Part shown: piece by piece, positions 7,796-57,499 of the stretch
Layout of the letters: every line of letters starts with the position of its first letter
Numbering within the stretch: the first letter of the stretch is position 1
DNA from: Loxodes magnus
Lineage: Eukaryota; Ciliophora; Karyorelictea; Loxodida; Loxodidae
DNA: 64,000 nt
NCBI GenBank assembly: GCA_946699065.1
Contig: CAMPDV010000043.1
Coordinates: 434,001 to 498,000 of the forward strand
Direction: 5' to 3'
Notes under the pieces: model-generated
The model's input: the letters and a program-made list of their open reading frames with translations, nothing else
Told to the model about the DNA's origin: nothing
Database searches by the model: none
Position numbers and translations under genes: made by a program

Positions 7796-10700
7796 ATGGA
7801 ATATTAAAATATTAAAAAGAAACAAGATCAAAAGGAAGGAAACAACAGTTTACCTTTCATTCCTAGGAAGATGATAAATCCTTCTGTTATAGTAACTTAA
7901 AACCTAAAAAGGAATTATAAACAGAAACTTGAATATTATAAGAAACTGCATGATTAGAAGGGATATAAAGATTTACTTGTAAAATAATCTTCTACTAGAA
8001 GATATCCTGGCAGTACTTTAGAATAATTAAACTTTGTAGGCTTAAACGCCAAGAAAACATACTATAGAAATTATCATGGACTTAATAAAATTTCAGATCA
8101 AAATAGCTTTAATAAACTCGAAAACTCAGCGTTTACAGAGTATTAAATTAAGTTAAAAGAATTAAATTTACCTCCACATCCAATGGGTATAGTTAGAAAT
8201 AAAGGACATGATTAAATAATTGAAATAGGAGGTATGAATATTGGAAATAATTATGCTAGTGCTTTGATTCAAAGTTTAAAGAGAGTGCCTAAAATTTAAA
8301 GCTTAAACTTAAAAGATAATGGAATATCTGATGAAAATTTACAGCAATTGCTATTGTCATTGAAACCTGCTGATATTTTAATTTTGAATTTAATTAACAA
8401 TAGAATAGAAAAAGGAACTATCATGATTCTTAACAAACTACTACTTGATCCATACTGCTCATTATAGATTTTAAAATTGAGTAGGAATAAATTATAAGAC
8501 AGAAATATAAAAATGCTTTAAGATGCTTTAGAGTAAAATTAAACTTTGACTGAGATGGATTTGGGAAGAAATATGATTACAGAGGTTGGAGCAATTCATC
8601 TTGGGAAATTTATATCTAGCAGTTTTACTTTAAACTCTCTAGATCTTAGTTGAAACAAAATAAAAGGAAAAGGAGCTATAGTACTTTTTCAAAGTATTAA
8701 GGAATGCCAAAACTTGAAATATTTAGATCTTTCATGAAATAATTTGGCTCAAATAGATGAGATAGAAATAGCTAATTTAATAGCAGATTGCTTTGAATAG
8801 AATTTATCTTTGTTTCATGTCAGTATTGCCCATAATCATTTTACTAGAGAAGCCATAGCTATTATGAGTAGTAAACTAAATGATAACAAGTCTTTATATG
8901 GACTACATGTAGAAGGTAATGAAGGATATACTGATGCTTTTAGTTTTTTAATACCTGAACAGGAGGCAAAAAATGTATGTCTTGGAATTCTAAACAGGAA
9001 GCAGACAAGAGTATTTAATAAGACTGTTTCTGGGTATTTTTCAACAAGAATGTCTCCAGAATTTTTTTTAGTGAATTCCTAAAGTCAACAAGACCAAGAT
9101 TTACCATATGTTCAATCTTAATCGCCATAAGGATAATCTCCTGTTAATACTTAAGAAGAAGGCTTTTTATCTTGCTGCTGAGTGTGCTAAAAGTGGGAAG
9201 AGGTGACTTTTAAATGAAAACCTGGGAAATCTGGTGATTTTGATTCAGAGCCTCTGTTCATTCATTTAGAAGTTGATAATTTTAATTTCTCATTTATGCC
9301 TAAAAACTCTTAAGGATATTACGAAGTAAAAAGAATGGTTCCACCTGGTTTTAATAAGTTCTTTTACAGCTTTGATGGACAAATAGCACTCAATGATTAA
9401 AAGCCCAAAGTGTTTTTCCCTTTTTAAGGAACTTACATTTATTATGATGACATTGAAAAGAGAATTTAAACTGATGATGTTAATCAAATTTAAATCATTC
9501 AAAGTGAAACATAAATCACTCCTTCCACTTTGCCTTCTTTGAAGCCACGTGATCGAGGGCCTTAGTATAACTTTGTTAAAGTAGTAGTAAAAAAATAATG
9601 GAAGCTTGAAGAAAGTATTTTCAAAGATTATAAATTTGATAATGAAAAATTAATTGATAAGTGTTTTGAGTTTGATTGGAGCTGCTCAAAAATACCTAGA
9701 CTTATTAAAGATGAAAATGAGCTGAATTTAGCAAAAGAAATACTAAGAAAGGTCTATGTACATATTAAAGAGACTTATAAATACTTTGCTGGACTCTCTA
9801 ATATTAAAGGAGTTTCATCTATTTCATAAAATGCTATTACTGAGGTTGCTAATGAGTGTAACCTTCTAGATAGTAGATTTAGGCTTAAAGATTTAGATTT
9901 CTAATTTATTTCTTCAAACTAAGTTGAAGATAAAAAGAACCCTAGATTACCGTAGAATGCTTTGGTAAGATATTAATGAATGGAGCTTTTTGTGAGAATA
10001 GCTTTAGATAAATTCTTAAAATGTAATTTTTTATTCAGCTGGAACATATCAAATACCTTCATAAGCTGTAAAGGCTATTTTCGACCAAGATTTACTTCGT
10101 CCAATGGAAGAATATGATTCAAATCACTGGAGATGAGGAATATATATTTGCGAAGAAATAGATAATGTATATAAGTAGTATGAAGCTATTTTGAAAGCAA
10201 TCTACTTTAAGTATAGCGGGATGAAAGCTTTGCCAGGAAAGCCTAAGTAAGTTATAATTCAGATTTATGTGCTTGGAAGAATTTGAACAACTCTGTAACG
10301 ACTCAAATATATTAACTGAATCATTTCCAGTCAGAGAAATTGGAACTTGCTTTAATTAAGCAATGATGACATAAGTTGATGAAATTAATTATGATAGACA
10401 CTTTTAAATGCAGTTCATAGAATTCATTGAAGCTCTTGCAAGAGCAGCAGAATTGGCAAATATTTAGACTCCTGTTATAGCTAAAGCAGCTCAAACCAAT
10501 TCTAAGAAGTTTTAAATTATAGGGTTGTTAAAAGAAGATGCTTCTTAATTTCCTTTATATAGAAAAATAGAAAACTTATTCCCTCACTTAATTACTGCGT
10601 GCAATTCAAGCTTTAGAGATTAATTTTCATGACCTAAAGATTGTCCTTTCTTCGCAGACGAATCACACCCTCTCTTTACTAAAATAGGAAAGAAAAATTC

Positions 10701-11895: not shown

Positions 11896-14800
11896 TCAGC
11901 TTCTATAAAGTTGAACTATCTCTTTATGATTTATATATTTAAGAGATTCTATATTGTAAATGTTTGACTGAGCTTATTTAAAATAATGAAGATGATGTTA
12001 ATTAATTGATTATTAATTAAGTACATTTTAAGTTATTTAATTCAACGCTGTTCTTCTGATTTTCTATGTCTTTCTTATAAAGCTTTTTTCTTAAGAGCTA
12101 ACTATTCTTTTTAAAGCTTTTGCTTGCTTTTTAAAAGTATTAGTTTTTACTTGTTTGAACTGCATATTTATCTGGCTTCACCTAATTTAATTAAAAAGCT
12201 TACTCAAAATTCCTTCCCAGGTTTTTTGATTAACTACTCCATTTGCTGCTTCTTTATTTTTCTTTTACCAGGTTTTTACTAGCTTCTCAGTTTACGATTT
12301 ATATTAAACCTGCTGTAGTTTCACGTTAAATATTAACTCAAGAGCTTTTTATAGTTTCCTTACATCCCTTTCTAAATTGGTAAGTTTCCTTGCTAATGGA
12401 TTGACAAGCTCAGAATATAAAAATACGTTTTTATCAAATCTTGATCCAATAAACAATTTTGAAGGAGGAGTTTGTTGGTTAAAAGAAGGATTAAATTGCT
12501 AACATATATCACTTTACCTACTTTTCCTTTCTAAACTAATATCTTATATATCTTCCTAAAATATCTATTATCTTTGTCTGACAAAACTTTATTAACTTAA
12601 TTCCGTACTTAAACTAACGTCAGATTTTTGAGTTTGTAAAACATCTTTTAGAGTTCACTGAGAGAAAGATTTTTTGTGTCATTTGTTTTTCTTAACAATT
12701 TATGACTCTAGTTAAGCACTATATTTTCTAATCCTTCTAGAGCTATTTTATTTTATGCTTTATAGCTTTCTTTCGTTTGTTTAAAAAGAACTTTGTTCTG
12801 AAATTGAAGAGTTACTATCCATTATGATAGATTAATAGAATGATTATTCAGTTCTAAAATCGCTCGAATATTTGCTACTACCAGAACTCCTTAGTTCAAC
12901 TTAAATCTATCTAACCTTATTATTTGGTTCTTCACAAGACTTTAAGTTGGAGCTTTTTTCCGTTATCATTTTATGAAGTTATCCCTCTATATCCTTAGCA
13001 AGCCTTCTATCAAAATTTAAACGTTATACAATTTCTTAAGCTACTTGTTCATAACTATCTTATAGAATATCAAATTAAAATTAAACAATCGTTTTTTCTT
13101 CTTAGTTTTAAAAGACTAAAGTGATCATTACTTTATTCTATGGCTATCTACTATTAGCTCCTACTAATTAATTGCTTCTTAATTTTTACACTTTGGGTTT
13201 AACTGTTTATAGATCTATAGAGTTCTAGCTTGATTATATAGGAGAAAGCTCTTAGAAGTTATGAGAAATTTGATAATCCATAGTTTCTTAACGATGCTAA
13301 TCTACCAGTTTAAATTGATTTAATTTATTGTCATACTGATATTATTATTATTAAGCTACTCTTTTCTGCTGATGCTGCTAGATTTACTATTTTCCGTAAG
13401 AATAGTCTTAAGATTAATTTTCATCAAGATCAGGAATTTCCTCAAGTTACTTTTCAATCTAAAAATATGCTGGAAAAATCTAGTTTTACTACTATGAAAG
13501 TTACCTTTGCTGTAAATCTGACTTTTTAATGACTTTGCTTAGTTTTGACTTCTTATTAGTCTAAATAGAGAAATTCTATGGAATCTCAGTTTTCGATTAT
13601 GATATTTTAGTGATAGGCTTTTACTTAGAACAGATTGACATTTGTCTTTTTGATTTGTTGTTTATTACAACCCTTTAGGTTAAACTATTAGCAAAATCAT
13701 CTCCATTACTAGATGGAATGGAGTTATATGATAACTGTATACTTTAAAAGGGATTTTGCTTATCAGAAATATGACTGTAATAATAACCTTTTGCTAGAGA
13801 TGACTGTAAAGATTCGGTTTTACTCCTTAAATTTTCATTTTCTTCTTACTAATTCTGCATTTAGGCATTTTAATGATCATCAGATGCTTCTTAAAAGATC
13901 TTTTAGTAGCTTTATCTAGGAGAAATAACTTCTTTAGGAGAGTGTACATTACTTAATTAAGTTGATTAGTGAGAGTGATGGGATATTTGGAATTCTTAAC
14001 TTTAATTAGAGCTTTTTTTGGAGCTTTTCCTTTCATTTACTATTATAACCATCTAATTGTTGCTTTCATCTGTCGTATTATTGAGTCACTCCGATTCTAA
14101 TAAATCTATAGCTTTTGGCCTTTATTGAGGAGGTAAGAAGCACTATTTTATAAATTACTACAATTCTTCGTCTTTAATGTTTCAGAAGCATTCAGGTAAA
14201 ATTCGATTCTTAATCTTGGCGACTAAAGTAGGAAACTGTTGGCATTCTCCATAGGGTGTTTCTCCTGTAACCATTTCTAGCATACACATACCAAAGGCAT
14301 AAATGTCTGCTGAAATATCATAATGTTCCTCAAAAACTTCTGGAGCCATAAATTCAGGTGTTCCAATTATAGATTTTTGGAAATTTTGGCAAGCAGCAGC
14401 GAGTCCTAAACCTCCAATTATAATCTATCTTTAGCCGTTTATAAACAAATTATCACATCTAATATCTCTATGAATGATAGGGATTTCTTAACTATGCAAA
14501 TAGCAAATCCCTTATAATATCATTTTGAAGTATGACTTTAGATTTTTAAACTTTAATTGCTTCACCTTTTTTAAATACTATTTAAGCAATCCTTATTCGT
14601 AGTACTCAGTTATAATTATTACCCTTTGCTCTTCTTTATTGAATCAAGCCTATATAAATTTGATAAGGTTTGGATGATTTAAGTTTTTCATAGTAGTAAT
14701 TTCTTTGTTAATCTGCTCTCTTTCTTATTTAGATAAGTCTTTAATCCAAATATCATGCCAAGCTACTTATGTTCCTGTCTCAGAATCAAATGCTTTATAA

Positions 14801-15000
14801 GCTGTTCTGAATTTATCCTTGAAAATTACTTCATTGAAACGCTAATACCTTTTTTTTGGTGATACTTCAACCACCTAATTCTAATTATCTGAGGTTTAAC
14901 TAGAGTTTTCGGAAAAATATCTCTCTCTTTATCCTTTGGAGTTAAATTCTTTCTCATTATGTTAATTAAGAAAGCTTAATGGATTAGTTTTAAGGTCCAT
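11896..15000 (-). CDS. WNK-family kinase-like protein with degenerate catalytic motifs and OSR1-C-like domain
   Basis: Start ATG 15000. Residues ~50-298 are a WNK-type kinase fold: [14 protein letters not shown] (no Lys in the VAIK position, as in WNKs), [33 protein letters not shown] and [20 protein letters not shown]. Three features suggest loss of activity. The Gly-rich loop reads [11 protein letters not shown] with no glycines. The Lys that WNKs place in that loop is Arg. The DFG-type motif reads GGLGL, so the metal-binding Asp is Gly. The HRD motif is kept. Residues ~617-673 ([35 protein letters not shown]) resemble the OSR1-C/PF2 domain that binds RFxV motifs. The rest is Ser/Gln-rich. 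The TGA at 12178-12180 may be the stop or Trp; coding-like residues continue past it, so 11896 is used. WNKs regulate ion transport and osmotic responses elsewhere; here a scaffold role is inferred. Confidence 0.85.
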
Positions 15001-28522: not shown

Positions 28523-29156
28523 TCATTTACAACATTTCTTGCTATTTTTATTTTTCTTTTCAGTTGCTTCTTTTGTTACGGTGAAGCCTCTCTAATTTGT
28601 TTTTCGTCTTTTATCTTTTTGACTTAATGCAAGCATGGCTACATTAGTTAAACTTACATTTACTCAAAGTTTCGAAAACTTTATTTAAACCTTCGCCAGT
28701 TTTGGCCGATGTTTTGAAATGCTGAATTTTATTTTCATTGCAGAACTTAGCTACTAAGGCTTCTTCAACAGTTCTTTATCCTTACTTATCACACTTATTA
28801 CCACATAGCACTACCTAAACATGATCTCCTTCTCTTGCACGAAGTTCAAGTAATCAGTTTTTAACCATATTAAAAGAGTCAATATTAGTAATATCATACA
28901 CAATTATAGCTCCATCTGCATTTCTATAATAAATAGGCTGAAGACTTCTATATTACTCTTATCCAGCAGTATCTCATACATTGAGTTAAATGTTTTAGCC
29001 TTCAACTAAAAGTTATTTTTCTAAGTAATTAGCTTGCTTTGTTGATTGCTAAGTTTCACTGAATTCGTCATACACATATTTGTAAGTAATGCTAGTTTTA
29101 CCTACTCTTCCATCTCCTAAAGTAACAACTTTGAACACCATGCTCTAAGTCTGCAT
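28523..29156 (-). CDS. Rab-family small GTPase, Rab21/Rab5-like (204 aa)
   Basis: Start ATG 29156, one 19-nt intron, stop TGA 28523-28525. All G motifs are present: P-loop GDGRVGKTS, switch II WDTAGQE, GNKCDK and TSAKTG. Effector-side residues ([35 protein letters not shown]) are closest in my memory to the Rab21/Rab5 group, so a role in endosomal traffic is likely. The protein ends KNSKKCCK, a Cys-Cys tail suited to double geranylgeranylation. The gene is the clearest key to the genetic code here: Trp in WDTAGQE and in KNWLLELR is TGA, and Gln in WDTAGQE is TAA. A second Met at 29141 (MVFKVV) is an alternative start. The neighbour at 29495 is divergent. Confidence 0.96.
28639..28657 (-). other. 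19-nt intron in the Rab gene
   Basis: On the minus strand, gtaagtttaactaatgtag is flanked by the codons for TLSK and for [12 protein letters not shown]. Removing it shifts the frame by 1 modulo 3 and exposes the C-terminal Cys-Cys prenylation tail with an adjacent TGA stop, which is strong support. Confidence 0.9.
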
Positions 29157-31915: not shown

Positions 31916-31948
31916 AGAGCGCGTAGCACCTCGTTGGTGTGCAGCTCT
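31916..31948 (-). other. 3'-terminal stem-loop of the LINE
   Basis: A GC-rich stem-loop in an otherwise AT-rich area: outer arm agagc/gctct, inner arm gcacc/ggtg(c/t), loop around tcgtt. It lies between the stop codon and the tail, the place where LINE reverse transcriptases recognise their own RNA. Confidence 0.7.
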
Positions 31949-31960
31949 TTAATAAATGTT

Positions 31961-33868
31961 TCAATACATGTCTATTTCTTCAAGTAAGCCTTCAGGTAAT
32001 AAAAATTCTTCTCTTATTAGTTCCATATCCCCAACATTTTCTTCTTCAATATCTCTTGTTCTTCTGTCTTCTATCTATCTACGTTTTATTGATTCTTTGT
32101 TACAAGCGTCCATTATTTTTTTTACATACTTTGCTAATTTTCGTTTCTAATTCTTTTCTTCTTAATCAAGCTTTTATAAACTCATAAAAATTATCCTTTT
32201 CCTGCTCTTTAATCTTTTCCTATTTCTTTTTTTCATTCAATTTTCTTTTCTAAGTATCCTTTTTTTCTTTTTTCTAATATGTTTTTGATATAATCTTTTA
32301 TTATCAAGTCAGATTTAGCTCTTTTTTACTCTTCTTAGGTTCTAATGAATTTTTCGAATTTTACCGTACCTCATATTATATCAAATAGTTCCATTCCTTG
32401 TCTTTCTACTCCTATTATTCTTAACTTTCTAATACATATTTATCTACTTTCTTTGTATTCTGAGCATTTTTCTATGATATGCCTTTCGTTTTCTCTTGCA
32501 TCATTACAGAAAGGGCATTTGCTTGTTGCAACTAGGTGTCTTTCTTTTAAACAATCCTGGCTTCCATTACATCTCGTTCTTATTCTAAATATGTAGCATA
32601 TTTCTTCTTTTCTATTTTTATTGTATCTCAGGTAGTTGGGTGGTCCTACTACATATTCATCAAATCATGTTTTTTTATACTGTAGAGTTGTTATTATTTA
32701 CTCCATTCTTTCTCTATCTTCTACGTATACTCTATGTTCTCAAATTGCACGATTAATGTTTTTCTTCCCTTTTTGATTATTATTACCATCATCTATAAAT
32801 ATAATTTTGTCTTCAATTTTTAATTCTAATTTTATTGTCGTGCAGTATTGTTCAAAAATAAAGTTCTCTTCTTTACTTAGGTCGAACATTAATCCATCTA
32901 CTGTTTTTCCTTAGTTACCTATTAGTCTGTCTCTTAATCTCAGCGTTTTCTGCCATAGGTAATGTTTAAATTTCATAAACTGTAACTCGTATTCTAGCAT
33001 CTCATTTTACACTTAGAAAGGGGCATCTTTGATTGCTCTTAAAAATCTTCTCTATATTATTTCTAATTGTTCCATCACTTATTTTCTTACAAATTATTCA
33101 CAATATGGGATAACTTCTGTCCCATAGCTGAATACTGAGCTTACGAACGTTTTTATCATTATTCCTGCATTATATGGTGTTAATCCCTTATTCATTGTTA
33201 TTTTACCCAGTATTCATGTTTACATCTTTTATGCTGCTTCTAGTCTGTTCTCCATGTGTTTTACAAAGCTGATGGTCTCTTCTATTATATGCCCTAGGTA
33301 CTAAAAGAACGTTACTCTTTCGATTCTTAAATTTCCCACCTCAATAGTATTGCCTATATTTTCTCAGTTTCTATTTTCTTCTGCTTTTCATATCATTCAT
33401 TTTGTTTTATCTGCAATTTCCAGTTTGCATTTTTCTGCCCATGAGGTTAAACTTTTGTTTACTTCCTCTAATTATTCTCATTCACTTATTAAGGATAGGT
33501 CATCTGCATATGCAAAACATCCTGCATATATTTCTTGTGTTCATCCCTCTTCGTTTTTAAAGTCTATCGTAATTCATAGCTTTTAATCTTCCAAGCTATG
33601 GAGAAGTCTTGCTATTATTAAGTTAAATAGTCTTGGCGACGTTATGCTTCCCTGTTTTAGTCCTTTATTTGTCGCGAATGATTTTGCCATTTATTCATTG
33701 ATTTTAAGTTTAATTTCTTCTTCACAGTAGAAGTTTGCTAGGAGTTTAATTATCTATTCCGGTACTTTTAGATAGTTTAGGATTTATCATATATCTTTTC
33801 TTTGCACCGAGTCGTACGCTTTTTTAATATAAACAAATATTACGAAAACATCTTTTTTGTTCCGTATT
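31961..33868 (-). pseudogene. LINE reverse transcriptase fragment with frameshifts and a mutated catalytic Asp
   Basis: Recognisable RT blocks from the 5' border: IKKAYDSVQRKDIW (motif A), KGLKQGSITSPRLFNLIIAR, and FAYADDLSLISEW with an intact ADD. In motif A the residue where LINEs have the catalytic Asp is Tyr (VYIKKAYDSV), so this copy is probably inactive. Farther on, RCNGSQDC and CPFCNDARENERHIIEKC form a Cys/His cluster like the C-terminal zinc knuckles of LINE ORF2. Two frame changes are needed to follow coding character to the end (LLPEGLLEEIDMY then TGA at 31961-31963). Both fall at A-runs on the coding strand (plus-strand T-runs near 32260 and 32115) and both are consistent with one extra A. 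They are mutations or assembly errors at homopolymers. Confidence 0.83.
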
Positions 33869-33883
33869 GATAATAATAATAAT

Positions 33884-34413
33884 CTCCTTATTAGTTAAGT
33901 TACCCTACTGAAATGCTTATATCTAGTCTATAAAACAATCATCAATATAACCTATAATTTACTTTTATTAGCATTAAAGAAATGTAAATTACTAGTTTTA
34001 CTCTATACTATAAAGGATTATTATGTATCTAATTTTTATCCTCTTATTTAGATCTAAGGGAATACTTATAAAAGGCTAATTCTTTATGATCATTATACAT
34101 TCTTTAAGTTATTAAGATAAGTAATTAGCTATATAGTTTATTATTACTACTAGGCTTTAGAAATAAGCATTTAGCTTTAAATTAAATAAAAGAAAATCTC
34201 AGGTATACTACATATCATAGAGAGATATTTAGAATAGTATAAATTTTATATTTTTAAGATAAACTAAAATCTACTATCATATGAGTAGCTTAACCTCTTT
34301 CATCTATTAAGCTTAGACTTTAAGGATATCCTTAGAAAGCTGCTAATATATTAAAATTAGAGTTAAGATTTAAACAAATAAAGTAAGTATTATTGGTTTA
34401 AAGTATAACTAAT
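33884..34413. other. Intergenic spacer at the 5' side of the LINE insertion
   Basis: AT-rich DNA between the LINE 5' border and the next plus-strand gene. No gene or further element sequence recognised. Confidence 0.4.
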
Positions 34414-38771: not shown

Positions 38772-41700
38772 ATGTCTATTGTGAAGAATACCAACGTGCA
38801 GAAGAAATCTCCTTCAGCATTAATCAAAGACTAGAAGTCGGGAAAATCGCTTATGGACAGATATGGAACACCAGAAATAGTACAGTTTCTGAACATAGCT
38901 GATTTTTCTATTTACCCTGATTCACAAGTTCCTATTGACTAACCGTTATTTTAGCCTGATCCTGTTGTAGTCCAGTTTTCAGATTATGAGCCTTTGCAAT
39001 AGAAAGAAGGTGTTTTGTATTTAAGAAACAAAGACAAGGTAGCTAGAAGAGTTAAAATAATATAACCTGATTCTCGCTTATTTTCAGTTTAATTATATTA
39101 GCAGAGCAAGACTCAGACAGTTAAAAAAGGCAAAAAAATTTAGTAGTTGAATAATGAGTCTGGAAGTAAAGTGGCCCCAGGAATGACTGTATCATACTTA
39201 ATAAAATTTATTCCAGAAGCAAAGGTTGATTATAGTTATGATTTGCTTGTTGTTACTGAGAGAGAAAAGTTTATAGTTCCTATTAAAGCTGTTGGATAAA
39301 GAGCTATGATTGATTTTCCAGACCATGTTGACTTTGGTGTTTGTCCTGTCAAACATAACAGTAGCAAACCTGTGATGATAAGAAATGTAGGCGAAAAGCC
39401 AACTAAATGGAAGCTTAAAATACCACCACCATTTTCAGCTGAAAAATTAGAAGGACTTTTAGAAATAGGATAAATTGAGTAGCTAGCTTTATTCTTCCTA
39501 CCTTAAGAAAGCAGAATTTTTAAAGGTGAAATAATCCTTTAGTATGATGGCTTGGAAGCTTATATTACTACAGTTGGAGAAGCTCATAATGATTCTAATG
39601 TCTATCTATCCAAGAACTATATTCCAATGAAAGAAGCTTATATTGACTTGACTTCTCAATCTTCATTCAAAATTGTCAACAAATCGAATGTTCCTGTCGA
39701 GTTTGAGTGAAGAGCATTTGCTAATGAAAAGGAAGAATAAGAAAAGAAATAAAGACTTTTACTTCAATTGGCTTAGGAAGAAGCAGAAGAGAGAATGTTG
39801 ATAGAAGAAAGCCTCAACGAAAGTAGTGGAGATGAAAGTCTAGATTCAGATGATTCTTGGGATGAACTTGAATGCAGAAATATGCATGAAAGAAGACAAA
39901 TGAGAGCCCTTTTAACTCTTGACAGAAAGTATAGAAATATTAGATAAGCAGTAGAAGAAGATCTTATGCTCTTTTAAGACGATATATTCAATATAGAGCC
40001 TCAGGCTGGTAAAATTTGGCCTAACAGTGAACTTAGTATTACAATTACTTTTCGTCCAAAGGCTGCTTTGCATTATGAATGTACTGCTTACTGTAATGTC
40101 ACTTGTAGTGAAGAAAGATTACCTCTTTAACTGGTTGGAGAAGGTATAGGACCAAAAGCTCAAATTGGACCTCAGACTGATTATGATATGGGTGATGTCC
40201 CAGTTAACTGTCCTTAGAGACAAGAATTTACGATAGAAAACAAAGGTGCAATTGAATGTATGTTTAAATTAGCTCCTTATGATACTCCATTCGGAAATAA
40301 ATTCACTTTTGATTGCGAATCTGGAGTTCTTGCTGTAAAGGAAAGTAAAATAATAAATGTTAATTTCCAAAGTGATTTACTAGGAGAATTTTGTGAAACT
40401 TTTAGATTCTAACTATAAGGATCAAGCGAAATGCTCAGTATCACTTTCAAAGGTCACGTCGTAGCTCCAACTTTCAGCTTTAATAAAGAAAAAATAGACT
40501 TCGGTGACGTTAGTTATAATCAACTTATTCGTGAGATTATCAAGTTGACAAACACATCTGATGTTGGATTTACCTTTAATATTAGAGTTCCAGGAGATGG
40601 AAAACTAACTAAGAAAGAGTTTGATATAATTCCTTCAAGAGCTTTTCTATAAGCAAATGAAACATGCACCATATAGATAGACTTTATATCTCAAACAGTA
40701 AAGAAATATGATATGGTTTTAGTTGTAGACATTGAAGGAGTAGGTCAGGATATGCTTGCTATTCCTATTAAAGCAGAATGCCACGTCCCTGAAGTGTAAA
40801 TTATTCCCAAGGATAACTTAGAATATGGTCATATTTTCCTTAGATTCCCCTGCTATTAATTCGTAGAGCTATTTAATAAAAGCAAACTAAGAGCAAAATA
40901 TGAAGTTCTTCCTCAAGAAGAACAAAGTAAATTACTAGCTATTTATAAAGCAGAACCTTAGGAAGGATATATAGAACCTGGAGATCATTCAGAAGTTAAA
41001 GTTACATTAGAAGGATAAAAGCGAGGACAAATTAGAATTCCAATTTACTTCAAAGTGGTAGGAGATTCGCAGCATCCTACAATGCTTACAATAAATGCAG
41101 AATGCACAGGACCAATAGTAAAAGTTCTTACTCCTGAAATAGATTTCAGTAGAGTAGAAGTATTAAAAGATGTGAGTAATCAAATAAAATTACATAATAA
41201 CTCTGATATTCCTGCTAACTACAGAGCTTTTACTAAAAAGAGAGATAGCATTTTTAGAATACCTGAGAAGTAAGGAACTTTACAGCCAAATGAAACTAGA
41301 ACTCTTGAAGTAATTTGCTGCGCAGATGAATGCATGGCATTTACAGAGCAACTGCATTTCAGTATTACAGATGGAAAAGATGTGGATGTAATGCTAAAAG
41401 CAAAAGGATTTGGCGTTACTGCATATTGTAAGGATAATTTGAAACTTATTGATTTCGGTACTTAGTTTACTTGCACAAAAATAGAGAAAACAATAATAAT
41501 TGAAAATAAAGGAAGGAAACCATAAAAAATATAATGGAATAGAGTTAGAGGAGGATTTGTAGATCCTAATAAGGTAAAATAAGATAAAAATAAATCTTCA
41601 TCCAAATCTATAATTGAAGTCTCTAAAGTTTAATCTTAAGAAGAGAAAAAAGAAAAAGGCAAGGAAAAAGGTAAAAAGGGAGAAAAAGGAGATAAAGAAA

Positions 41701-47700: not shown

Positions 47701-50700
47701 ATGTGAAGTGCTCTTTCAAACCCAAAAATATGATGGCTTATGGAGGAATTTTTGAGGCAATAGTTGAGAATGGATAATAAAATCCAAAGACTGGAATATT
47801 GAAATTTGAGCTTAGAGGAGAAGGAACTCTCCCAACTGTTACTGGATAGAATACTGCATGGACTGAAGATGGAAAAGCTTTAATAAGATTTAAGAAAACA
47901 AGATGTGGTAAGAGATCAGTCGCAAATTTCTCCGCTAAAAACGAAGGACTAGTTCCTGCAACAGTTCGATTTGATAATCTTCCAAAAGAGAACTTTGCAT
48001 TTATGGGATCAGTAACTGCAACAATTGAGCCAAAAGCTTCTAGAACATTTGAATTTGAATTTTTCCCAAAAGAGCCAGGAAAGCATAGAGAAGAAGTTAA
48101 GATGTCGACAATACACAATCCTTATGAAAACCCTTTTATATGTTTAGAAGGAGAGGCTTATATAGAGGATGTTTCCTTTGAAAATCTACCTTTTGATTAA
48201 GAGGATACACTTAAATTCGGAGATTGTGCAGTAAATTAAGAAAACTGGACTAAGTTTAGGGTTACAAATCATACAGAAAATGTTATCAAATTTGTATGGC
48301 CAAGCTTGCTATAATAAATTCAATTTTTCCCTGGTATAGGACATCTTTCAGGAAAATCTAGCATGGATATCAAAGCTAAGTTCTTGTCAAGTGAGCCTCT
48401 TTCCTTGAATTAAGCAATTTAACTTAATACCTAGAAAATTAAACAGAAAGGAGCTACCTTTGAAAGCTGGAATTCTGAAGAGACAATTACTTAAGTAATA
48501 AGTGAAAAGCAAAAAAGATAAAATCAAAGAAAAAGAGAAATGGAAGAAAAACTAAGGAAGGAGCAAGAAGAACTATAGGCTTAATAAGCAGCCAAAAAGC
48601 AAAAAGGAGGTAAAAAATAAGTAGAAATAGGGGAAACACCTAGAATTTAAGTTTAAGTTGAAGACTCTGGTGATGAAGAAGGAGAAGCAGTAGAAGTTGA
48701 GGAACCAAAGTCAGAGCCTGATTACTAAGCAATGGATAATAGTACGAAAGAAATTCCGCTTAAAATCCAAGCAACCTCAGATTGGAATAAATACTCTTGT
48801 GAAATAAGAAACTTAGTTTTCAAACCAACTTTGATGTTTGCAGTAAGATCCCATAAATTTAACTTGAGAAATGAAAGTAACATTGCTATGAAATATAAAT
48901 TCAAAATTTGTAATATGGATTCTGGTAAATTGGATGCAGGTCCTTATTAAGTTTTACCAAGAGAAGGTACTATTGCTGCTTAGAGTGACGAAACTGTTAC
49001 TGTAAAATTCGCACCCAAAGAAGTAGACGAAAAGAATAGCAGATTACTGGTTTGTTCTATATCTGATTTAGATCCTTCACTAGAACCATTAGTTATTGAA
49101 CTAAGAGGTAAATCGGAGCGTCCTGTATGTCACTTTGAATTGCCACCATCTAATTATAGAGAGAAAAAAGCTTAAGATATGACTCCAATTGACTCAAATC
49201 TCTTAATTATTGAATTTGAAAGCTTAGGTACAAAAGTAAAAAACACCAAGCGTTTCTATGTTGTTAATCCAACTTCATAAGGGTATGAATTCGAATGAAT
49301 ATGTACACAAGAAGATAGAAGATTCATCTGTCAAACTCAGAAAGGTCTCATATTAAGTGGTAAAAAATTCGAGATGGTATTTGAGTATATTCCTGATTAA
49401 ATAGGAACACATGAAAGCTATTGGAGTTTTAAAATACCATAAGAAGGAATCAATCAGTAATTTTTAGTAGTTGGTGTTGTCAATGAACCCGTTGTAGAGT
49501 TCCAAAAAGGTAAAATTAGTTTTGGTGCTTTATTGATAGGAGGAAAAGCAAAAGAAATAATAAACTTGGTAAACCAAGAGCACATTCCATTTTCATTCAC
49601 ATTCAACAAAAATAGTATCTCTGGTGAAGAGAACTATGCAGATTCTCTTTAAGTCACTCCTTAGAGTGGTGTTGTAAGTCCCAATTCACAAATTCCTATT
49701 GAAATTATTTTCTCACCTAAAATTGAGCTTGAGTTCAACTATAATTTGATTTGCAACATAAAGAGAAAAAATAGACCTTTAGTACTTAACGTAAAAGGAG
49801 AAGGTTATATTATTAAGCATAAAGTCTTCGTAGAAAATACTCCTATTACATACTTAGATCCTTTCACTCTTGAAATGGAATAAGTATTTGTGAATGAATC
49901 ATTCTCTAGAAGGGTTTATTTACAGAATTTAGGACAGTTTAATTTCGATTTTTCTTGGAAGAAAATAAAAGCAAGATATATTGTTATAAATCCTGAGCAA
50001 GGAACTGTAAAAAAGGGAGAGAAATTTGAAATTGAAGTGAAATATAGTCCATAAACTGAAAATAAGTTAAACGCTAGAGTCCAACTTAGCATTGTTTCAG
50101 GACCAACTTATAATATTAATATCCTTGGAGGAGCAAGGAAACCTGGAGTTTCCTTAAGTTTTACCTAGTATGATTTTGGACCTTGCTTCGTACTAAGATA
50201 GCCTATTCCGAAAATGGTAGTCTTAGAAATGGTAAATAATGATAGCATGGCCATTTCAGTTGAAACTAATTTTATGCGCTTACCACATTTAGATGTTTAA
50301 CTATCACCTGGCCAAGTTCTATTACCCTCAACAACAACAGAACCTAAGAAACTAGAGATCCCAATAGTATTCACACCTAGAGAAATAATGCAATACTAAT
50401 AAACAATAGAGTTTGACTTTAACAATGTACATAAAGTACAAGTTTAAATTAAAGGAGAAGGTTGCCCTCTTAAACTTGAGCTAGAGAATCGTGAGTAAGA
50501 GCAAATAGACTTTGGAGTTATAAGAGTAGGAGGTGACTTAACCAAAACAGTAAATTTGGTGAACAGAAGTAAGAAAGGTGTAGAATTTATACTTTTAGAC
50601 TAAGCAGGAGATTTAATTAAAAACTTTGTGACTTTTGCTCCAAGTAAAGAAGTCTTTTTGAAGCCAAAAGAAATATTGCCAATTGAAATTAGATTTAAAC

Positions 50701-52647
50701 CAACTGAAAGAATCCCTGGATTTAAGCGAGATTTATCACTTTAAATTATAAAAAGTGAAACAAGGAAAATGCTTAGTATTTAAGGTGTCTGTCATGGTAT
50801 TGAATTGAAACTTATGGAAGAAGTAGTTGGTTTTGGAAGTGTTGTTGTTAACTCATAAACAAGCAAAAAAATTCAACTTGTTAATTTAGGTGACGTAAAT
50901 GCCAGATTTTAATGGGAATCTGGACCATACCAGCAATATTTTGATATCTAACCTAATAAAGGAGTCTTACCTGCTCATGAAGATATGTACTTCGAAATTA
51001 CTTTTGCTCCTAATGCAGTGGATGATGATATTAAATTCACGAAAGTTCATTGTAACATTGAAAACTCAGATCCTCTGCTTCTTTCATTAATGGGACGTTC
51101 AGTTCCTTAACCTGCAGAATAAATAAAGGAATTGAAATTTGATACAATAGTTAGATAGTAGCAAGTTTTGAAAGTTTAAATCAAAAATCCTACTTAAAAG
51201 CCCTGGAGAATTAATCCTTCTATTTCCACTACTTTGGAAACTACAAAAGGATATTTCAAAGGACCTGCGGCTTTAGATATTCAGCCAAATCAAACTTCAG
51301 ATTATGAAGTTAAGTATTAGCCAATGACTATGACTAAAAAAGAGTAAGAAGGTAAACTTGTAGACCATCCACATGAAGGTGCTCTTTTCTTCCCACTTCC
51401 TGATGGGTCAGGATTACTTTACAATTTGATTGGTATAGCTAGAGAGCCTAAAGCAGAAGAAACAATTGATTAGGAAGTTGTTAGTAAAACCCCTTCAATT
51501 ACAAATATCAATGTAAAGAATTGGCTTCCAGTCACTTAACGTTTCAAAGTTAGTTGGGTATAAGAAGGTGAGGCAGTTTAAAGCACTCTTTTGAGAGGAG
51601 CAAATACAATTGACGTTCCAGGGAACTCAGTAAAAGTTTACAAACTCAATATACTTGCCCATAAGACAGGGATAAACAAATTCAATATAAAGTTCTTGAA
51701 TGAAAATAGTAATGAATATTAATTCTTTTTGCTCAATCTAAAGATTGTTGCCAAAGATAAAATAGCAGCTTTCAAAATGGAAACTCCAGTAAGAGAAACA
51801 GCAATCAAAGTAATTACAATAGAGAATCCTTTGTAGAAGGAAATTACTTTTTCTAAAATCACATGTGATAACTAAGCTATCATGCTTCAGCCTGATTAAT
51901 TAAAAATTGGAGCTAGAAGTGAGAAAGGATTTGAAATTCATTATCGTCCTTTGGTAGTAGGAGATTCTAAAGCAAAAGTTATTGCTACTAGTGAAGATTT
52001 AGGTGACTATTTATATGAGTTGACATTAAAAGCATTATAGAGTTCTTAATAGAGATCAATGCACTTTAAGACTTCTTTAGGAACTGAACTTGTTTAAGCA
52101 TTCAGATTTACTCATTTCCTTAAAAAATAAGTTCAATATTAAGCTAAAATAGAAACATTAACAGGAGGAGCTTAGGAATTCTTTGTTGATAAACCTAACT
52201 GTGATGTAGGTATCGCCGAAAGCTATGAAGGAATAGAAGGAGTCTGTGATGTAAGGTATGAACCTTGTAATTTGCGCGCTAGTAGAGCTATTCTGACACT
52301 AACTCATGTAGAAGGTGGAACATATACTTGTTTATTAAACGGTCAAGCAACAGCTCCAAAACCATAAGGCCCTTTCAAAAGCACTGTAAAAGGTCTAACA
52401 ATAGATTTCAAAAATCCTTTTGCTGAAGATAGTGAATTTGAGTTTAGAATTGATAATCCAAGTTTCACAACTGCAATGTAAAAAGCAAGTACAAAAATAC
52501 AAGTAATATTTTTTATTTCAGGCTAAAAAATAGATACAAGTGAACATAGCTTATAAGTAGGTGGAAGGTTATCCAACTACTGGAAGATTAATAGTATCAA
52601 CAGGTGACTTACCACCTTGGATATATTACTTGACTGGAATAGAATGA
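38772..52647 (+). CDS. HYDIN: HYDIN homologue, axonemal central-apparatus protein (~4,618 aa)
   Basis: ATG 38772, one frame for 13.7 kb, a 19-nt intron near the end and TGA 52645-52647. Length is close to animal HYDIN (about 5,100 aa). The N-terminal third matches the family segment by segment: DFPDHVDFGVCPVKHNSSKP, VEFEWRAFANEKEE, DDIFNIEPQAGKIWPNSEL and DFGDVSYNQL. The protein is mostly a chain of Ig-like ASH/MSP domains (recurring DFG-x and EPxxG-type turns). At residue ~1870 IIVHGKHLTGKTTFSQN is a P-loop, followed by GVIIDSLDSKYCQNP, corresponding to the adenylate-kinase-like insert known in HYDIN. Lys/Glu-rich linkers sit at ~955-980 and ~3240-3310. The end VEGYPTTGRLIVSTGDLPPW is conserved. 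HYDIN builds the C2 projection of the ciliary central pair. Trp is often TGA (e.g. FEWRAF). Confidence 0.96.
52503..52521 (+). other. 19-nt intron in HYDIN
   Basis: gtaatattttttatttcag, only about 125 nt before the stop. Removing it (1 modulo 3) links STKIQ to AKKQIQVNIAYKQ and the conserved C-terminal GYPTTGRLIVSTGDLPPWIY, ending at TGA. Without it the frame reaches TGA after unrelated residues. Confidence 0.92.
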
Positions 52648-53999
52648 TGAAATAATACATTCACTTTTATAAATTTAATATATAAAATATTACCTTTCTA
52701 CCTTCATCTCTCCATTATCGTATTTTTAGAACGATATTATCTCTTTAAACTATCTATTTGTTCTCATCTCTACTATAAGCTATGTTAAATAATATGCAAA
52801 GCATTATAATAAAAATAGTTAGTCAGAAATTAAAAATAGCATCAATTGAATAGCGAAAAAACGATAAATAGTAAAGGATTAAGTATCATTAAGATATAAA
52901 CTTAGTATAATATTATATTATTATACTAACTTCTCTTGGTAGGAAAGAACTTGCTTTTGATTTCATATATCAATTAATAGTTACTATAGCACTAATAAGT
53001 TATATCAATATAGATGATATAATACTTGCATATATTGACATGAAAAAAGATTTAAAGAGCTAGTATCAAATAGAACAGTTAGATAATTAGAAGTTTAGAT
53101 ATAAGATAAAGGATTTATTAGAACGAATATTACATAAACTTTATACCATCTTAGCTTTACTATTTACCTTCAAATTTTTAAGTTTATGCTTCTTATTTCT
53201 AGAAATCATTTGATAGATTCCTTACAAAACAGTTCTTGTTTAATTTTTATCTTTTAAAGTAATTAATAAACTCAAAAGCTATTTGAAGCTTCTATTTAAA
53301 TAGATAAGCAGTAACTTGATAAAAGCTTAGGTAAGTTAAATATGAAATTAAAGCTTCTAATTTTAAAATAAATAAAGAGCTGAATATTTTAATCCAAACT
53401 TAAGGAGTAAAATAAAGTACAATATCTCCATTTAATTTCCTCAAAATTCTCTTTTTCATTCTAAATTAATCTAATTTTAATATTTAGTCAGCATTATATA
53501 TATAATAAGAGCTTAAACAATTTTTTCTTTAAAATAAAAGAGTGAAAATCAGTTTAATTGGTAGTTCTTTCATTATAAAGCAGGAAAAGATAAAGATCCT
53601 AGAAATATAATTTAGTTAGCTTGCAAACAGTAAGCATACCTTATTTTCTAATTTTAAGTAGAATGGGAAAAAGAAAAGGATAATAAAGTATAAGGTTTGC
53701 ATCAATATAAGAGTAGATTAATCTATTAATACTAATGCTTATTGTTATAATAGGAGAAATTTTAAATAGATAAGAGCAAAAATGAAGTAAACTTCTTCTT
53801 ATATCTTAGCTTTATCATATTTAAGCTTTAGTTAATCTAGTTCATTAAAATACCTTCAATAAAGCTGTCTATTGCAAATAATATGGCTGGGAAATGTTTA
53901 AAACTAGTATTAAATATCTTTTTATATAAGCTTGAATTTAAGATTTTTATTTGATTGATATAGTTTCAAGGAGCTAAATATTAAAAAGGTTAAATTTAA
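52648..53999. other. Intergenic region
   Basis: About 1.35 kb of AT-rich DNA between HYDIN and the SGNH-UBA gene, both on the plus strand. A 57-codon open frame at 53040 is too short to trust. Nothing else recognised. Confidence 0.45.
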
Positions 54000-54989
54000 A
54001 TGGAGTAAAGTAATGCAAACTAAAAAATTGTATTGATTGGAGATTCTACAATTGATAATTTAGTATGGGTTGAAAGTCCTAAATAATCTATTCCTGAAAT
54101 ATTAAGAGCTACAATGCCTGATTATAGTATTATCAACTACGCAGCAGATGGATTTACTAGTTCAGATGTTGTAAAAGGAGCTGTCCCTGCAATTTCTATG
54201 TTTCAGAGAAGACAATCAGGAGATCCATTTCCAAATGAAGTATTGTTTTGTCCTTTAGAAGAGCTAAAGAAATTAGAAGGAGTTTCTCACATCGTTATAT
54301 CAATTGGTGGAAATGATATTAGAGAGATACTTGGAAATATGTCATCACTGTTTTCAAAACTACAAGTGTTCAATGAAAATTATCCTTAAATAATAAGATA
54401 AAGCTTGGACGTAACTCTTAACGTAATAGTTATGCTTTAATATCGACCAAGTTTCTATCAAGATGAATGTTATGGAGTTTATTAAGCAATGGAATAAATA
54501 CCAGGACTTGGAAACAGCATAAAGAAAATAAACATATTAATGGAGTCTATCTATAATGTTATTTTTAAGTAGTTAAGAAAATACAGCATTGCAATCATAG
54601 ATTTACCTAATACATTCGATATCTTCAATCCTGTTTTATTTAACACTTAGATAGAACCAAGTGCTGAAGGAGGCCTCTTAATCGCACACCTTATAAAATA
54701 CGTTGTTTAGAACCATACATTTTAAAAATCTGCTCTTTATAGCATTTCAAATCCTAATGAAGATTAATCCCAATGAAAGGTGGAAGTTACAGATAATCCT
54801 GAGGGATATTAATGAAAAATCGTTAATTTTAATGATTTTGACGAAGCTTAGATTTCTACTGCTTTTATTAAATAGTTAGAGTAATTAGAATAAATGGGAT
54901 TTACTAACCTAGAAGCAAATAAAGAAGTTTTGAAGTCTACTTAAGGAAATGTAGAAGCTGCAATAGAAGTTTTACTAAGCAAGTTGTGA
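54000..54989 (+). CDS. SGNH/GDSL-type hydrolase fused to a C-terminal UBA domain (329 aa)
   Basis: ATG 54000 to TGA 54987-54989, no intron. The N-terminal ~240 residues are an SGNH hydrolase: IVLIGDSTIDN carries the nucleophile Ser (block I) and ISIGGNDIREIL is block III. In block V the usual HPS...G motif reads IEPSAEGGLLIAHLI, so the expected catalytic His is Glu; a His occurs eight residues on (IAHL). Activity is therefore uncertain. Residues ~280-328 match a UBA domain: EQMGFTNLEANKEVL, then TQGNVEAAIEVLLSKL, which would bind ubiquitin. The two parts are linked in one frame with Trp encoded by TGA (SQWKVE, YQWKIV). SGNH enzymes are esterases or lipases; a ubiquitin-guided esterase or adaptor is inferred, and the substrate is unknown. 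Confidence 0.88.
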
Positions 54990-56292: not shown

Positions 56293-56793
56293 TCAATATA
56301 CTACGTTTGCGAAGTTGCTGTCGAAAAATAAATTATATACAAGCAACAAAAAACTTCCTACAGTAAATATTAAGACTATTTTGCCTATTTCTGGATTTTA
56401 ATTTTAATAAGTTCCTCTGTTCGCAGTTTAACCTCCAATATTCCAACTAAATCCTAGTGTAGTAAAAGGAAAAAATCCAAAAAACATGTTGAACTAACTT
56501 TAATTATTAGGGAAAAAGCCATTATACCAACTCTGTTAATTTTACTCTTACTCTCTTCTTGCTTAAGGCCTTCGGGGTATTTATTCCGCTCTGGGATCTT
56601 TTTAATTTTCTTAAGTGAATATAGGAGTCACCTTTTCTTAAGTCACATGTCCTTTACAAACAGGACAAACTTCTTTATTATTTAACCATTAATACAAGCA
56701 ACTCCAACAGAATAAATGTCCACATGAAGTGACTACTGGACTCTTTGCTTCAGTAAGACAAATAGCACAATTAAATTTAGATTAATAATCCAT
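56293..56793 (-). CDS. RNF5/RNF185-type membrane-anchored RING E3 ligase (166 aa)
   Basis: ATG 56793 to TGA 56293-56295 in one frame. Residues ~8-50 are a complete C3HC4 [34 protein letters not shown] and VCPVCKGHV, with all eight zinc ligands. Then comes the family feature KVTPIFTQENQKDPRAE and a Pro/Arg-rich PRRPQARRE. A hydrophobic middle ([20 protein letters not shown]) and a C-terminal transmembrane helix ([19 protein letters not shown]) anchor it. This is the layout of RNF5/RNF185, ER-membrane ligases of ER-associated degradation. Size matches (about 180-190 aa in animals). The gene is divergent from the next orphan. Confidence 0.93.
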
Positions 56794-57499
56794 CTGCCTT
56801 ATATTATATTATAACAATATATACTAAATACCACTTCATTAATTACTTATCTCTTACTTTTTATCTTATACTTCTTCTAGAATTGTTCTTTTGGCTTTCT
56901 AAAATACTTTTACTATTTCAAGTAACTATTCATGCTTATCTAGTCTGCTTTATTTAATTGTTTCTAGTATCAACTAATCTCTCATGCTTTAAAGCAACAA
57001 AAGAGAGTTACTTTCTAACTAGGATGCTTTAGTTAAAAGATAATGTTTTATATTAAATGCGATTTTAATTTAAAGCTGAAGTAAAGAAAATAAAATACTT
57101 AACCATAAAAGTATTTTCTATCTATACTCTTTGAGCTATCTTCTAAAATAAGGTTAGTAATTCTTAGAGTAATTAGTTAAGCTAGTCAAAGTTTAAATAC
57201 TTCTTATTTTACATATAGTCTAGGAAAATATTATTAGGTGTAATTAAAATTAAGTCTTAATTACTCTCACTTTATTATGTTTAAAACGCTTTCTCTCCTT
57301 AAAAAGAGGTGAAAAGGATATATAAACCATTTTAATTGGTTGCTTATCTGCTTAAATAGATGCTATATTTTTTTCTTTATATCTGAAACATTAGCTAAAC
57401 CTCTTAAACAAAGTACCTTATCTTGATTATTTTTATTTAAGGTTAAAAGGAAAGTGATAATATTGATGAGATTAATTATAAAGGAACAATAAAGGGAAA
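56794..57499. other. Divergent intergenic region
   Basis: AT-rich spacer of about 700 nt between the RING ligase gene (-) and the following orphan (+). No distinct signal seen. Confidence 0.45.

Follow-up and report, generated by a model that had tools for sequence, protein, structure and literature searches.

Three described genetic codes come closest to the one discussed here: the karyorelict code (NCBI table 27), the code of Condylostoma magnum (table 28), and that of Blastocrithidia (NCBI table 31). In karyorelicts, exemplified by Loxodes magnus (PMC11441545) and Parduczia sp. (PMC4967479), the passages cited here give UAA and UAG as Gln and UGA as Trp or stop by position. For L. magnus the cited part of PMC11441545 states that table 27 is used, UGA being either the sole stop or, at a sufficient distance from the poly(A) tail, Trp; it further reports a GC content of 18.6% in 3' untranslated regions, introns with a mode of 17 and a mean of 19.3 bp, depletion of UGA and UAA but not UAG before the stop, about 2,700 reverse transcriptase domains, and assemblies of 848 Mbp (MIC) and 706 Mbp (MAC). 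A tRNA-Trp(CCA) with a 4-bp stem has been found in Loxodes, according to the cited part of PMC13092985, and an earlier study scored karyorelicts as using UGA as stop and UAR as Gln (PMC6935857, in the passage cited).

The other two codes resemble the karyorelict one in part. In C. magnum all 64 codons are sense and termination depends on nearness to the transcript end, for which the cited portion of PMC4967479 proposes a model of translation by default; UAA and UAG terminate there as well. In Blastocrithidia UGA also encodes Trp and all three stops are reassigned, and as a further likeness highly expressed genes avoid the reassigned codons; unlike in the karyorelict code, UAR is Glu and UAA is the stop (PMC12153298, as far as the cited passages go). 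Thus, the code described below is not new: published accounts of the code, of how context decides the reading, and of a candidate tRNA mechanism already exist for the karyorelict lineage, and the code has apparently been described in L. magnus itself.

We analyzed a window of 64 kb (434001-498000 of contig C43) together with the assembly that contains it, which has 705,730,643 bases in 7,843 contigs. The window is almost certainly nuclear DNA of L. magnus using NCBI code 27, in which TAA and TAG are translated as Gln, while TGA is read as Trp inside a gene and as stop close to the mRNA end. Compared with the karyorelict systems as far as the cited sources describe them, it shares AT-rich DNA past stops, probable tiny introns, and a LINE piece; no difference was found in the window, and two paralogues elsewhere in the assembly have TAA ends that are unexplained.

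Sense and stop codons in genes of the window

A small GTPase gene carries the main features, all on the minus strand:

28523..29156, minus strand: small GTPase gene (Rab21/Rab5-like) from ATG to stop, encoding 204 amino acids once a putative 19-nt intron is removed
28974..28976, minus strand: TGA as Trp (Trp61) in the switch II motif WDTAGQE, aligned to Trp of Rab21/Rab5C
28959..28961, minus strand: TAA as the catalytic Gln of WDTAGQE, from translation and alignment with solved Rabs
28854..28856, minus strand: TGA as Trp (Trp101) in VKNW, with Trp in Rab21 and Rab5C at the aligned position
28639..28657, minus strand: probable 19-nt GT...AG intron, which brings the KKCCK end into frame
28523..28525, minus strand: TGA as terminal stop after CCK (KKCCK-TGA)

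Translated with table 27, this gene (28523-29156, minus strand) reads MQTQSMVFKVV...LNVWDTAGQEQYRSL...VKNWLLELR. The product matches the Pfam family Ras (E 3.6e-51), and its best solved relative is Rab-21 (E 1.8e-40). Both TGA-encoded Trp residues align to Trp in solved Rab-21 and Rab-5C, so that translation and alignment bear out the claim of an earlier note on this DNA that WDTAGQE is encoded with TGA for Trp and TAA for Gln. Near the C-terminus the reading frame shifts; excising a 19-nt GT...AG stretch (28657-28639), which the frame marks as a probable intron, yields 204 residues that end in KKCCK-TGA. A prenylation end such as KKCCK is what a Rab should have, and the gene does end at TGA (28525-28523), as had been stated, once the putative intron is removed. 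The next 60 nt have a GC content of 0.27, higher than the mean of 18.8% for Rab loci of the assembly. With two TGA codons as Trp and one TGA at its end, both TGA meanings occur within one short gene, and this clean example is what the window contributes.

Further TGA codons fall in other genes of the window:

8651..8653, plus strand: TGA at LDLS-W-N of a leucine-rich repeat, by motif
8735..8737, plus strand: TGA at LDLS-W-N of the next leucine-rich repeat, by motif
31922..33900, minus strand: LINE-type reverse transcriptase piece with many in-frame TGA codons
38841..52607, plus strand: HYDIN gene, whose coding segment spans about 4,575 codons when read with table 27, by codon-model gene finding and alignment
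39708..39710, plus strand: in-frame TGA in the HYDIN motif FEWRAF, where the motif alone assigns Trp
49296..49298, plus strand: TGA at the Trp of three solved HYDIN sequences, by alignment
52605..52607, plus strand: TGA, in frame, a possible but weakly indicated end of HYDIN
53967..54989, plus strand: GDSL/SGNH hydrolase, ending ...EVLLSKL-TGA (54987-54989)
56293..56799, minus strand: RING gene, ending ...NFANVVY-TGA (56293-56295)

The earlier note had read TGA as Trp in three of these genes and as the end of several. The TGA at 49296 lies within a 600-residue stretch of HYDIN for which solved Hydin is found with an E value of 2.2e-131. The TGA in FEWRAF is in frame as claimed, and no solved relative was found for the HYDIN stretch that holds it, leaving this Trp with its motif and no alignment support. 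The TGA at 52605-52607, at which HYDIN may end, is in frame as well, and the following 60 nt, with a GC of 0.30, give it no independent support as an end. In the leucine-rich repeat gene, TGA does occupy two LDLS-W-N positions, and the gene's Pfam match scores under the curated threshold. The LINE piece is rich in TGA; no endonuclease match was found in the frames scanned, and this copy may have been truncated and have decayed, which makes it weak evidence for TGA as Trp.

Regarding ends, both the SGNH gene, whose C-terminal part resembles a UBA domain, and the RING gene, presumably RNF5/RNF185-like, reach TGA as had been stated, and the 60 nt following the SGNH stop have a GC of 0.12. A B-box gene, also said to end at TGA, was not found again in a motif search of the window. 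On the minus strand at 12679-15000, a protein kinase gene has a WNK-like HRDIRCDN motif, a weak OSR1_C match, and in-frame TGA codons.

Rab paralogues and their ends across the assembly

The assembly gave 150 scored Ras-family matches; 60 from the top 66 were taken and joined with the window gene, which ranked lower, to make a set of 61 Rab loci. Six of the top 66 matches were omitted (on C102, C279:377093, C1661, C1564, C1655, and C1155) and have no TGA listed in them, so the share of TGA in the set is somewhat high. DTAG is in frame in 55 of the 61 loci. The codon preceding it is TGG in 29, TGA in 22, TAT in 2, and TAC and TTA in 1 each; the codon following it, that of the catalytic Gln, is TAA in 37, TAG in 11, CAA and CAG in 3 each, and ATG in 1. 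TAA or TAG thus occupies 48 of 55 catalytic Gln positions, and the reading of both codons as Gln, claimed from the window, is upheld at an invariant position in tens of paralogues.

When TAA, TAG, and TGA were masked in the Rab alignment columns, 54 of 62 TGA codons fell in columns with a majority residue, which was Trp for 50, Phe for 3, and Lys for 1; the TGG control gave Trp in 62 of 67. Together with the codon before DTAG, these columns identify UGA as Trp inside genes. For TAA and TAG the same test scored zero Gln-majority columns and was equally uninformative for the CAA/CAG controls, so the masked columns are silent on these codons and the evidence for them is the catalytic Gln position. 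Outside the Rab family, the invariant Trp preceding FDEFN of dynein is TGA in 4 of 28 loci and TGG in 24. The pattern of TGA, TAA, and TAG among the 61 Rab loci is not due to chance.

These columns bear directly on the idea that the ordinary ciliate code (table 6) applies, with TGA as the only stop and in-frame TGA codons arising from pseudogene mutations, sequencing errors, or RNA that is edited or spliced. The LINE piece, whose many TGA codons may mark a decayed copy, would fit that idea. However, TGA (22 of 55 Rab loci) and TGG (29) interchange at one invariant Trp column, and Trp is the majority residue in the columns of 50 of 54 masked TGA codons; random nonsense mutations would not be so confined. 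We therefore regard table 6 as scarcely credible here, and the table 27 reading, with TGA as Trp inside genes, is retained.

Rab ends were scored by a rule requiring CC or CxC at most 200 nt from the domain end and then TGA within at most 3 codons. It was satisfied by 47 of the 61 loci, or by 46 after L034 was dropped as spurious, its match lying in another frame and far from the real end. L034 and the 14 loci outside the rule were inspected by eye, and several of these 14 lack the motif and end at TGA (e.g., L018, L020, L027, L056, and L065, which have similar ends, ...Y-TGA). UGA accordingly terminates at 46 of 61 Rab loci, and where TAA or TAG lies between the Cys motif and TGA (7 codons in total), TGA still comes after.

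In two loci, L034 and L047, TAA stands at the terminal CxC/CC motif or one codon past it, where their paralogues have TGA, with no in-frame TGA nearby. These unexplained ends are signs against TGA as the sole stop, and they would suit a Condylostoma-type code (table 28), in which all three codons are sense internally and all three are able to terminate at ends. Yet TGA stands at the end in 46 of 61 Rab loci against TAA alone at two, it still follows the 7 intervening TAA/TAG codons, and the cited part of PMC11441545 gives UGA as the only stop in L. magnus. Table 28 is consequently very improbable, if slightly less so than table 6.

Under table 27, sense UAA and UGA are expected to thin out before the stop. 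In the 46 loci the share of TAA among Gln codons is 28/96 near the end versus 194/384 elsewhere (p 2.3e-4), and TAG shows no reduction; thinning is thus found for UAA. TGA is absent from the last 20 codons, versus 56 occurrences elsewhere, which proves little since just one TGG occurs there and the comparison is underpowered. The 60 nt past the stop of these 46 loci have the mean GC of 18.8% mentioned above. In 21 Rab loci the end lies in a different frame than the domain, and a candidate GT...AG intron of fitting length class was found in 20 of the 21; the search was limited to 15-25 nt and run without a control, so the lengths are partly imposed and the result is agreement with short introns, not proof. 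The values measured here agree with the L. magnus figures given in the cited part of PMC11441545.

Taken together, the observation of the earlier note, that one codon has two meanings, is confirmed, and its interpretation as the karyorelict code is supported by the invariant Rab positions and by TGA at 46 of 61 ends. Short introns would account for the frame shifts, and suitable tRNAs, eRF1, and nearness of the poly(A) tail may together decide how each codon is read. No tRNA-Trp reading UGA and no Gln tRNAs for UAR were found in the 64-kb window. A tRNA family search of the assembly returned 63 scored matches from 42,786 candidates, six of which were read, and all six are tRNA-Lys(UUU), one each on C942, C504, C1, C478, C91, and C78. 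The matches mostly score equally, and some are evenly spaced, at about 527 bases on C103 and about 1,752 on C78 and C158.

Scarcity of sense TGA in HYDIN and at a dynein Trp

Trp codons of HYDIN are TGA in 2 cases and TGG in 25 (2/27), versus 62 and 69 in Rab domains (Fisher p 6.4e-5). The invariant Trp of dynein is likewise TGA in 4 and TGG in 24, versus 22 and 29 (22/51) at the invariant Trp of Rabs (p 0.012). The share of TAA/TAG among Gln codons, by comparison, is equal, at 227/318 in HYDIN and 404/559 in Rabs. The contrast is drawn from one HYDIN and one dynein position, and the choice of Rabs slightly favors TGA; moreover, paralogues do not give independent counts (some dynein stretches encode identical protein), and expression and length are confounded.

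The dynein loci (L089-L116) are the 28 of 42 AAA_6 matches that score above 400 bits, the 14 weaker or partial ones being dropped. Eight of the 14 hold TGA (4, 3, 2, 2, 1, 1, 1, and 1 per matched stretch; six are on C19), and their inclusion would therefore weaken the contrast between dyneins and Rabs. On C19, at about 848-931 kb, weaker or partial dynein matches carry up to 4 TGA per domain and are perhaps decaying or divergent copies. Codon-model gene finding was sensitive chiefly to HYDIN, along with a small number of other segments; in three of four 50-kb blocks of other contigs it gave two segments on C15 and none on C10 and C21, too few to help a comparison by gene length.

A tentative explanation, to which we give somewhat less than even chances, is that sense UGA is costly. 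If tRNA-Trp and eRF1 compete at UGA alone, each sense UGA would risk early termination, and long genes would be selected to keep TGG. Avoidance of reassigned codons by highly expressed genes in Blastocrithidia (PMC12153298, in the part cited) offers a parallel, and trade-offs of premature termination are the related subject of PMC3161013. Among the titles and opening abstracts listed on UGA reassignment and gene length, no result relating TGA to gene length was found for ciliates. The scarcity is a small hint of a possibly new result. If it is general, the cost of an ambiguous codon would be measurable within one genome. More broadly, a code in which no codon is reserved for stopping matters for the question of how ribosomes recognize the end of a gene.
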